64,000 bases of DNA, from NCBI GenBank assembly GCA_000697055.1, contig JNDT01001856.1, forward strand, positions 1 to 64,000, in the 5' to 3' direction. Of this stretch, positions 37,799 to 45,736 are shown in pieces. The position numbers were made by a program, and so were the translations under genes. How positions within the stretch are numbered: position 1 is the first letter of the stretch; the number at the start of each line of letters is the position of its first letter. Under the pieces are notes generated by a model. The model ran no database searches. It saw only the letters and a program-made list of their open reading frames with translations, and was not told the origin of the DNA. The stretch comes from Saksenaea vasiformis B4078 (lineage: Eukaryota; Mucoromycota; Mucoromycetes; Mucorales; Saksenaeaceae).

Positions 37799-39184
37799 AT
37801 GGTTCTATTACGAAGCCTTCTTCCGATCTCCGCCTGCATTTCCTTGGTAGCAGCTGGCGTGATAAAGCCTTATGTCATTTACGATGATCTGAGCGGCAAA
37901 AATATCTCCAGTGTCATCTATCGATCAAGCCCTGATGGTGTGAAGCAGATCCACTATGATGATTACAGAAAACTAGCTCTCAACGGAATCAAGCGTAACA
38001 GGCAAATCCGGAAATCACTCAAGAAACACAACGCTGGTGCAAAGAGACAAACTGTTAATTGCATTGTGGACGAGTACCATGAAGAAGATCACACTCAATG
38101 GTATGACAAGGATATGCAAAGAGCCTCCCAGAACGTAGACTGTAATGCCGATACCTGTGACGTTCAAAAGACAAACTCTGTTTCGGTCACTGAGACATGG
38201 ACAGCCCAGCTGGAGTTTGGTCTAAGTTCTGAAGACAAGAAAACAATCACGGCTGGTGCAACCCTTGGTTACTCTTGGCAAAAGCAATGGGTCGACAGCG
38301 AAGCTTACACGTACCACATTCATAAGGGCGACAAAGGCTACCTTGCCACAAAGGTTCTAATGCAAGACACCATGGGAAATGTGCATCAAAAATGCATCAT
38401 TAATACTGGAGATTTCCCGAACCCCATGGTGACTCACGATGGACATGTGTACGCTGCTTCTGCTACAGGCGTCGTCGATTACGTGTTTGTTTTCGACAAG
38501 CATGGTCCAGAACCTGGCGAAGGGGGACACGGCAAGGATGATGACGATGATGACGATGATGACAACGACGACGACGACGATGATGATGATGATGATGATG
38601 ATGATGATGATGATGATGATGGTGACGATGATGACGATGATGACAACGACGACGACGACGATGATGATGATGATGATGATGATGATGATGATGATGATGA
38701 TGGTGACGATGATGACGATGATGACAACGACGACGACGACGATGATGATGATGATGATGATGATGATGATGATGATGATGATGGTGACGATGATGACGAT
38801 GATGACAACGACGACGACGACGATGATGATGATGATGATGATGATGATGATGATGATGATGATGGTGACGATGATGACGATGATGACAACGACGACGACG
38901 ACGATGATGATGATGATGATGATGATGATGATGATGATGATGATGGTGACGATGATGACGATGATGACAACGACGACGACGACGATGATGATGATGATGA
39001 TGATGATGATGATGATGATGATGATGGTGACGATGATGACGATGATGACAACGACGACGACGACGATGATGATGATGATGATGATGATGATGATGATGAT
39101 GATGATGATGGTGATGATGATGATGATGATGATGATGATGATGATGATGATGATGATGATGATGATGATGATGATGATGAGTAA
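37799..39184 (+). CDS. secreted protein with a giant aspartate tail (paralogue 1)
   Basis: Intronless, 461 aa. It has a signal peptide (MVLLRSLLPISACISLVAAG), then a propeptide-like region of about 65 residues ending in a Kex2-type site (AGAKR-QTVNC, about residue 84). A globular domain with four cysteines follows (NCIVDEYHEEDHTQWYD; NVDCNADTCDVQKTNSVS; TITAGATLGYSWQKQW; KVLMQDTMGNVHQKCI; YAASATGVVDYVFVF). From about residue 245 the rest is aspartate interrupted only by regularly spaced N and G, about 215 residues. It is closely similar to 44471-45736. The globular domain's alternating Thr/Ser pattern suggests a beta-sheet fold; function is unknown. The tail could bind calcium or other cations at the cell surface or in the medium. 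Confidence 0.85.
   Translation: MVLLRSLLPISACISLVAAGVIKPYVIYDDLSGKNISSVIYRSSPDGVKQIHYDDYRKLALNGIKRNRQIRKSLKKHNAGAKRQTVNCIVDEYHEEDHTQWYDKDMQRASQNVDCNADTCDVQKTNSVSVTETWTAQLEFGLSSEDKKTITAGATLGYSWQKQWVDSEAYTYHIHKGDKGYLATKVLMQDTMGNVHQKCIINTGDFPNPMVTHDGHVYAASATGVVDYVFVFDKHGPEPGEGGHGKDDDDDDDDDNDDDDDDDDDDDDDDDDDDGDDDDDDDNDDDDDDDDDDDDDDDDDDGDDDDDDDNDDDDDDDDDDDDDDDDDDGDDDDDDDNDDDDDDDDDDDDDDDDDDGDDDDDDDNDDDDDDDDDDDDDDDDDDGDDDDDDDNDDDDDDDDDDDDDDDDDDGDDDDDDDNDDDDDDDDDDDDDDDDDDDGDDDDDDDDDDDDDDDDDDDDDDE
38539..39181 (+). repeat. 81-bp coding minisatellite (poly-aspartate)
   Basis: GGT-initiated units start at 38621, 38702, 38783, 38864, 38945, 39026 and (84 bp later) 39110. Each 27-codon unit encodes G-D7-N-D18 and keeps the same GAC/GAT pattern, so the copies arose by recent DNA-level tandem duplication rather than by codon slippage alone. 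The end is a pure GAT run. Confidence 0.97.
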
Positions 39185-40112
39185 AATTTTGATACGTCCT
39201 GCAAAAAATCGCGCCTTTCTATTAGATTCAAGCTATACAGCTAGTAGTATTGCATACCATAGAACTTAATGTAATAAATTATACTTCAGAATTTTGCTTC
39301 ATTAGCTTATCGTGGTAAATGCTGGCAAAGATTATAGTGAGCTGTCTATGTATCAAGTCGCTGTGTCAAATCTTATTCTGAAGCGACAATTCGACTAGGT
39401 CAACATCGAGGAGGTCCCATTTGTGATATATGTGTATATGTGAGTAAAAGAAACAGACCGAAAAATCATTTGAGACTGAGTTATCCTTTATTGTTCTCAT
39501 AGTTAAACTATTTATATAATGTCTCTACGTATGCTGTATGATTTATGCGCCATCTCCCATTAAGTGCAGCACGTATCTAGGAGTATATACTAAGCAAGAG
39601 AGGATTGACTGCATGAATCCAGCTATCATCTCTTGTCGCATTATGCATGCGGTAGGATAGTCTGATCCTCTTAATCCTGTTATGCGGGGAGATATACATT
39701 GTACGGAAAATACGATGATCCATGGATCCTTATGTAAGCGGTACATTGAAGACCCGCTTCTCAAGGTGCATTACAACATCTTAGCTATACGATAATATTG
39801 ACATGATTTTTCGCTATCTAGAGGAGAGTGGTTCGCCGCGCTTGTATCGATTATGGACGAGAGCTGCTTTTTTGATTAACGAAGTGTTTAAGGACCATAA
39901 GTGTTACACAGCGCAGATTATCTTAAAATCTAGCCTAAACCTTACCCTAGACTTTAGTTTCGCTAAGACACTTCAATTAACACCTCGTAGAACGATTGCT
40001 ATAATACACAAAACGGCGATACAGCCTTACAGCGGTAGCTCGTAAGAAAACTTGCGGTTTACAATGGTCTATGATTGTGTAGCGCTTATGGCCCCTAAGA
40101 AAAATCGTTTGA
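39185..40112. other. intergenic, no supported gene
   Basis: 3' flank of the poly-aspartate gene. Short frames only. Confidence 0.55.
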
Positions 40113-44405: not shown

Positions 44406-44470
44406 CGACGGCATTTTACGGCACAGTAACGATAACAACGAAACATCCAGTCGTTCTTTGCCTTCTCTTC

Positions 44471-45736
44471 ATGGTTTTGTTACAAAGTCTCCTTCCAATC
44501 GCCGCCTGCGTTTCGCTGGTGTCTACAGCTGTGACAAGGCCTTATGTCATCTATGATGATCTGAGTGGCAAGAACATTTCCAGTGTCATTTACCGATCAA
44601 CTGCTGATGGTATCAAGAAGATCGATTACTCTGAATACAGAAAGTTCGCCAAACAAGAAGTCAAGAATAGCAAAAAGAAACAACATTTCCTGAAAGAACA
44701 CCTTGCTGGTTCGAAGAGACAGTATGAAATCTTGGTTTGCAAGGATAACAAATATGACGAACAAGACCATTCCCAGTGGTACGACACCAGGAAGGTTTCT
44801 CGAGCTGTAGAATGCAATGTTGATACCTGTGATGTCCAGAAAAGTGAAACTTTCTCAATTACGGAGACATGGAAAGTCGATATCAACATCGGTCTAAACT
44901 TTGGCGAGAAGAGCACCGTCATCGCTGGTGCAACTCTTGGTTATTCCTGGCAAAAGCAATGGACCAACGGCGAAGCTTACACGTATCACGTTCACAACGG
45001 TGACAAGGGCTATCTCGCCATCAAAGTACTGATGCAAGATACTATGGGAACTCTTCACCAAACATGCGACTCCAATGCACCATTTGTTGGGCACAAGAGA
45101 TACGACCGTGATCTGCATATTTACGCGGCTTCTGCAACTGAAGTGTCCTATTACATCTTTGTGTTTGAGGAGCATGGCAAGAAGCCCGACGGAAATGGCG
45201 GAAATAGTGACAACGGTGGCAACGGCGGCGGCAACGGCAGATGTTCAGGTGGCCGCCCCGGAAAGGGTAATGGTAACGGCGGTCCAGGCGCATGCTGCGA
45301 AACAAGTGATGACTGCGAAGATACATGCAATTACGGTGTCTGCGGCAATGGCGACGGAAATCCTGATCCACATTTTCCTAATGGAATCCAGAGACTTTGC
45401 AACGGCGGCAGCCCTGGCGAAGGAGAAGGCGACGGCGAAACCGGTGCTTGCTGTGACTCCAGCGATGATTGCAAAGACACTTGCACTAACGGAGTATGTG
45501 GCAATGGCGACGACGACGGTGACAATGACAACGATAATGACGACGATGATGATAACGATGATAATGATGGTAACGACGATGATAACGACGATGATAATGA
45601 TGACGATGATGATGATGACAAGGACAACGATGATGATGATGATGATGATGATGATGATGATGATGATGATGATGATGATGATGATGATGATGATGATGAT
45701 GATGATGATGATGATGATGATGATGATGACGAGTAA
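44471..45736 (+). CDS. secreted protein with cysteine modules and aspartate tail (paralogue 2)
   Basis: Intronless, 421 aa. The first 60 residues are nearly the same as paralogue 1 (signal peptide MVLLQSLLPIAACVSLVSTA; VTRPYVIYDDLSGKNISSV). The Kex2-type site is AGSKR-QYEIL and the globular domain is collinear (DVQKSETFSITETWKVD; VIAGATLGYSWQKQW). After it come two copies of a glycine/cysteine module with the pattern C-x-GG-x-PG...GACC-x-x-SDDC-x-DTC-x-x-GVCGNGD (about residues 258-300 and 312-348), absent from paralogue 1. The tail is D/N-mixed and then about 40 pure aspartates. The module resembles small disulphide-knot domains. Function unknown; extracellular. Confidence 0.85.
   Translation: MVLLQSLLPIAACVSLVSTAVTRPYVIYDDLSGKNISSVIYRSTADGIKKIDYSEYRKFAKQEVKNSKKKQHFLKEHLAGSKRQYEILVCKDNKYDEQDHSQWYDTRKVSRAVECNVDTCDVQKSETFSITETWKVDINIGLNFGEKSTVIAGATLGYSWQKQWTNGEAYTYHVHNGDKGYLAIKVLMQDTMGTLHQTCDSNAPFVGHKRYDRDLHIYAASATEVSYYIFVFEEHGKKPDGNGGNSDNGGNGGGNGRCSGGRPGKGNGNGGPGACCETSDDCEDTCNYGVCGNGDGNPDPHFPNGIQRLCNGGSPGEGEGDGETGACCDSSDDCKDTCTNGVCGNGDDDGDNDNDNDDDDDNDDNDGNDDDNDDDNDDDDDDDKDNDDDDDDDDDDDDDDDDDDDDDDDDDDDDDDDDDDE
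45529..45735 (+). repeat. (GAT/GAC)n coding microsatellite
   Basis: Encodes the aspartate tail of paralogue 2. It is less regular than the 81-bp array of paralogue 1 and ends in a pure GAT run at about 45630-45730. Confidence 0.95.

Follow-up and report, generated by a model that had tools for sequence, protein, structure and literature searches.

Two paralogous genes in a 64,000-nucleotide stretch of DNA from the fungus Saksenaea vasiformis B4078 (contig JNDT01001856.1, positions 1 to 64,000, hereafter the window) probably encode zymogens of aerolysin-type pore formers, related to the killer toxin K62 and to the Pfam family DUF6060 (PF19535), and carrying an acidic tail. An earlier note on this DNA had described a secreted, lineage-specific pair whose globular domain matched no family; that last claim no longer stands, since the domain can be placed in DUF6060 and is similar to the family of aerolysin-like killer toxins around K62. 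The two genes are laid out as follows, all on the forward strand:

37799 to 39184, +: paralogue 1, complete open reading frame (ORF) of 461 amino acids, without interruption
37799 to 37855, +: probable signal peptide of paralogue 1, residues ~1-19, judged by eye
37856 to 38047, +: propeptide of paralogue 1, residues 20-83, ending in AGAKR
38048 to 38518, +: mature core of paralogue 1, residues 84-240, DUF6060/K62-like through homology to paralogue 2
38180 to 38290, +: candidate membrane-insertion hairpin of paralogue 1, by alignment with the hairpin between strands 2 and 3 in the model of paralogue 2
38537 to 39181, +: poly-Asp tail of paralogue 1, 215 residues (200 D), in 81-bp tandem units
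44471 to 45736, +: paralogue 2, complete ORF of 421 amino acids, without interruption
44471 to 44527, +: probable signal peptide of paralogue 2, residues ~1-19, judged by eye
44528 to 44719, +: propeptide of paralogue 2, residues 20-83, ending in AGSKR
44720 to 45187, +: mature core of paralogue 2, above the curated DUF6060 cut-off of the Pfam profile
44846 to 44968, +: predicted strand 2-3 hairpin of paralogue 2 (core residues 42-82), alignable to the K62 insertion loop
45242 to 45343, +: cysteine module 1 of paralogue 2, C258-C291, six Cys
45398 to 45499, +: cysteine module 2 of paralogue 2, C310-C343, six Cys
45509 to 45733, +: Asp-rich tail of paralogue 2, 75 residues (62 D)

This architecture bears out the earlier description in both genes, from the uninterrupted frame through signal peptide, propeptide, AG[AS]KRQ site and common domain to the Asp tail. 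The signal peptides were called by eye from the translations, and the open frames suggest that both genes are intronless. A secretion signal and a Kex2-type site are likewise supported: the motif at residues 79-84 reads AGAKRQ in paralogue 1 and AGSKRQ in paralogue 2, and the KR at residues 82-83, where cleavage is predicted, is also found in a relative from Apophysomyces sp. BC1021. Beyond this site lies a shared core of about 155 residues, with four cysteines common to both. Even downstream of the genes some likeness persists, as a 31-base stretch (39271-39301 and 45832-45862) is 87% alike and is perhaps a shared 3′ end signal.

The mature domains are 55% identical. Over residues 1-240 the paralogues share 58% of their positions, and each is about as far from the BC1021 relative (59 and 57%). 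Synonymous divergence over these residues is near saturation (dS ~1.7, with dN ~0.29 and dN/dS ~0.17), from which we conclude that the duplication is an old one and not a recent event. The whole core is under purifying selection. The propeptide contains the best conserved stretch, residues 26-42 (37874-37924 and 44546-44596), which is identical at 17 of 17 positions between the paralogues despite the near-saturated synonymous sites, and 94% identical in the BC1021 relative. This stretch is a possible chaperone, inhibitor or peptide signal; a search with the propeptide found no match elsewhere in the genome (38.68 Mb in 666 contigs).

Membership in DUF6060 comes from the profile search that had been proposed for the globular domain. 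Using hmmscan, the core of paralogue 2 scores 28.2 bits, above the curated whole-protein cut-off of 26.5 bits, and the same model run against the genome gives 27.1 bits. To obtain this match the Gly/Asp-rich flank has to be cut off the core, longer pieces giving none. Paralogue 2 is a DUF6060 member and paralogue 1, for which hmmscan of the core gave no direct match, a member by homology to it. With the precursors as queries, Pfam, NCBIfam and the Protein Data Bank (PDB) returned nothing useful, an NCBIfam match at E 0.014 being discarded as far under its cut-off, and Rfam gave no match. The earlier note had stated that assignment to a known family with known function would speak against its reading: this is now so in part, with a family at hand and a function known only for K62.

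Other relatives enter the argument below:

L006, 1381 to 2004, −: third, distant family gene of the fungus, ten Cys, no [KR]R site and no Asp tail
L014, 815 to 1489, −: DUF6060-like gene, without poly-Asp tail
L012, 2132 to 2860, +: plasmid-borne DUF6060 protein of a soil Clostridioides

L006 was found with paralogue 2 at E 1.2e-5 and finds it in reverse at E 6.8e-6; it scores 27.2 bits against a profile of the tailed proteins, where the best of 20,000 shuffles (16,307 of them reported) reached 10.4 bits. As a query in the protein search it gave no relative at E<=0.01. A further DUF6060-like copy (L015/L017), 52% identical to L014, lacks the poly-Asp tail and is interrupted by an in-frame TGA. 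By hmmscan the BC1021 relative (22.7 bits) and L014 (23.7 bits) fall below the DUF6060 cut-off, as do L014 and the interrupted L015 in the genome search, and neither L006 nor the scanned piece of L015 matched by hmmscan. The Clostridioides protein is itself DUF6060 (E 9.3e-8), is matched by L006 weakly (6e-3) and by paralogue 2 at chance level (E 8); the reciprocal search with it gave three genome matches at E<=1, namely L006, paralogue 1 and paralogue 2, L006 alone being individually significant. Copies 94% identical to it occur in 15 C. difficile plasmid records, and a sigma-70 family factor gene adjoins it. Searching plasmids with L014 (tblastn) gave a single match, at chance level. Scans of prokaryote and virus contigs yielded 80, 36 and 46 pattern matches and no confirmed relative; these scans are too insensitive to show absence, because a bacterial plasmid relative exists. 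The tailed form has one relative outside this genome, that of BC1021, which agrees with the narrow distribution proposed earlier. This holds for the range searched, proteins of ~136-432 residues that have short words in common with the query, so that longer-tailed relatives would be missed (paralogue 1 has 461 residues).

K62 of Saccharomyces paradoxus is described, in the excerpts of the source used here, as a secreted aerolysin-family protein of 272 residues, a pore former by hypothesis, with a KR motif between its N-domain and core (112-272) and an insertion loop at 167-192 (PMC12691639). It forms stable high-molecular-weight oligomers, has antifungal activity and more than 1,000 homologues, 57% of which keep a dibasic KR between the N-terminal and core domains (PMC12691639). 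Comparison was made with 37 printed K62 residues around the insertion loop, taken from a second paper (PMC13211469). Aligned to the paralogue 2 hairpin, the loop was matched by 1 of 2,000 shuffles, or 3 of 2,000 with alternation kept; the L014 alignment runs gapless over 32 residues and was matched by none of 2,000 either way. All four other comparisons were weak (52 of 2,000 for paralogue 1), and the K62 link rests most on L014 and paralogue 2. Profiles tell a similar story: six sequences together gave 0 of 5,000 full and 1 of 5,000 register-preserving shuffles, a profile restricted to L006, L014 and the plasmid protein gave 0 and 1 of 5,000 as well, and the three tailed proteins gave 32 and 87 of 5,000. 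Judging from sequence, K62 probably belongs to one family with DUF6060 and the window genes.

The predicted fold would point the same way. Structure prediction, also suggested earlier, yielded for paralogue 2 a low-confidence AlphaFold model (pLDDT ~60) with five long strands and a central hairpin between strands 2 and 3; most of the structures nearest to it are pore formers of the aerolysin type. Alternation of polar and apolar residues in a 17-residue window of the hairpin was matched by 20 of 5,000 shuffles in paralogue 2 (154 of 5,000 on a hydropathy scale), by 164 in L006, 863 in paralogue 1 and 948 in BC1021. Averaged over four sequences it was matched by 24 of 20,000 shuffles, and over three by 222 (247 and 973 of 20,000 in a 13-residue window); at 21 residues the best window falls partly or wholly outside the hairpin. 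On the family average, the hairpin region seems to retain the alternation typical of an insertion loop. Two observations temper the case for an aerolysin-type fold: the paralogue 2 model has no PDB match at E<=0.001, and the paralogue 1 model lacks five clean strands. Fold and K62 kinship are, on this evidence, supported but short of proof. Two leads were set aside, namely a clostridial enterotoxin matched by L006 (E 0.34) and the plasmid protein (E 0.62), at chance level and unrepeated by the family profile, and an unnamed structural match in BFVD (A0A346G454, E 4.8e-4), suspected of being a killer toxin, unconfirmed and not used. PF01117 and PF03318 had no hmmscan match and no match in the genome, in a search that was silent in all control genomes too, and a literature search for aerolysin in Mucorales found nothing pertinent among the papers listed.

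The tails are the most unusual part of these proteins. That of paralogue 1 is built of near-identical 81-bp units, whose number may be miscounted in the assembly, and both complete tails end in DDDE followed by the stop codon. The partial BC1021 record, P0003, has a tail as well, which makes three of three members of the close subgroup, while the frames of L006 and L014 have none. Paralogue 2 in addition carries the motif GACC-x2-SDDC-x-DTC twice, at residues 273 and 325, within two 40-residue repeats identical to each other at 26 of 40 positions. The earlier note had these modules as gained; both are there, and gain in paralogue 2 is no more than the simpler reading, paralogue 1 and the partial BC1021 record lacking them. 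They match nothing in Pfam or PDB and nothing similar occurs elsewhere in the genome; they may be ligand binders, perhaps of carbohydrate. The tail itself is probably a device for solubility, for tethering to the wall or for locking by charge, and wall association through it is possible. A literature search for polyaspartate fungal proteins found nothing pertinent among the papers listed.

What we infer from this about cleavage, pore formation, target and the functions of tail and modules can be put as a sequence of steps. The signal peptide would lead the precursor into the secretory pathway, where a Kex2-type protease would cut after KR83 and release the five-strand core of ~155 residues from its propeptide. 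The core would then oligomerise on a target membrane, its strand 2-3 hairpin inserting as part of a beta-barrel, and competitors would be permeabilised. Mucorales walls contain chitosan, and the tail would most likely hold the molecules in solution and apart from one another, or bound to such polycations or to calcium, until low pH or the target is met. The probable role would be to compete with other microbes or to ward them off. A stricter form of this idea is doubtful: a charge lock, in which the long poly-Asp tail keeps the Kex2-cut, K62-type core soluble and apart or chitosan-tethered, with release by acidification or contact with a polycation. If true, a pore former would here be controlled, and its producer protected, in a way that the portions of the literature examined do not describe.

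Could the tail rather be the point of the protein? DUF6060-fold proteins that no longer attack membranes might form a wall- or mineral-binding matrix, the core serving as scaffold and the tail as the working part that binds chitosan, calcium or calcium oxalate. Nothing else in these proteins is as extreme as the tail, it marks the whole close subgroup and not L006 or L014, and Asp-rich proteins commonly bind calcium minerals. However, purifying selection covers the core as a whole and the alternation of the hairpin seems to be kept in the family average, and when the literature was searched for calcium oxalate in sporangia of Mucorales, nothing pertinent by title and abstract was found; we consider a matrix protein unlikely. 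The opposite view, in which the tails are functionless in-frame microsatellite growth, is somewhat doubtful, and it would be compatible with a pore-forming core. Near-identical 81-bp units in paralogue 1 and the trinucleotide repeats common in the window speak for it; but differently composed tails in three genes, probably of two species, have kept the Asp frame, and the two complete ones share their DDDE ending.

That the proteins are secreted effectors directed at a host, plant or animal, with or without pores, is quite improbable. The secretion signal, the cysteines and the narrow distribution of the tailed form would fit, and another DUF6060 protein is listed as an effector of Plenodomus lingam, although in the part of that source used here the listing is a prediction only (PMC10381368), and K62 is apparently non-toxic to higher eukaryotes (PMC12691639, excerpts). 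Highly improbable is a secreted peptide, released by Kex2 from the conserved propeptide, with the core as mere carrier. The invariance of residues 26-42 would suit such a product, but of the [KR]R sites of paralogue 1, at 65 and 82, site 82 alone is common to both paralogues, so that conserved cuts of this kind do not enclose the stretch; moreover the mature core is conserved too, and the propeptide has no counterpart elsewhere in the genome.

GC content in the window averages ~42.5% over 32 two-kb steps. Ordinary genes flank the pair, those for ribosomal protein L3, a NIF phosphatase and PSP1 among them. Between ~30 and 51 kb, frames of at least 150 residues occur only over the two paralogues and at 41733-42272, the latter overlapping a transposase piece on the opposite strand; genes of short exons could lie there. 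Farther off, glucoamylase (GH15) matches at 13791-15495 (+) are split over separate open frames, like an ordinary intron-bearing gene. The transposase piece, which we take to be of Tc1/mariner type, is as follows:

41640 to 41984, −: DDE_3 transposase piece between the paralogues, separate from their proteins

Zymogens of K62-like pore formers, as we read these two genes, would mean that proteins left unnamed by the searched libraries now have a family, and a mechanism that can be tested. The domain is of a kind already known and probably holds no new fold; what is new is mainly the poly-Asp tail. If true, the reading would extend K62-like pore formers to Mucorales. The proteins are listed from Ascomycota, Basidiomycota, Chytridiomycota, bacteria and plants in the excerpts used (PMC12691639). 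No word beginning with "mucor" occurs in the main text of that paper, and our literature search found no report from Mucoromycota among the 15 papers listed of 24 matches, supplementary tables lying outside both checks. It also suggests that DUF6060 is an aerolysin-type family. How, then, does the producer stay unharmed by its own secreted pore former? Candidates for such control are the acidic tail and the conserved centre of the propeptide, both directly open to study.

Among the closest known systems is DUF6060: the paralogue 2 core lies above its curated cut-off, whereas paralogue 1 has no direct match, and Pfam gives the family as of unknown function. The nearest structural neighbours are aerolysin-type toxins (parasporin-2, epsilon toxin, the Laetiporus lectin LSL, Dln1 and the Bombina aerolysin-like protein), with which the paralogue 2 model has in common the five-strand core and the hairpin between strands 2 and 3. 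Unlike them, the window proteins match neither ETX_MTX2 nor Aerolysin in Pfam, which also finds no lectin or other domain for receptor binding in them, and they have a Kex2-type site and an acidic tail in place of a C-terminal propeptide. K62 differs in being encoded on a dsRNA satellite, and in three predicted disulfides against four shared core cysteines here; poly-Asp tail and GACC-SDDC modules go unmentioned for it in the excerpts used (PMC12691639). The overall plan agrees with that of K62 and the K62-like KTA1/YCL049C, in a secreted precursor with an N-terminal domain of ~80 residues, a KR at the boundary and a core of ~160 residues, the latter with a predicted five-strand aerolysin-type arrangement, core cysteines and an insertion hairpin alignable to that of paralogue 2.
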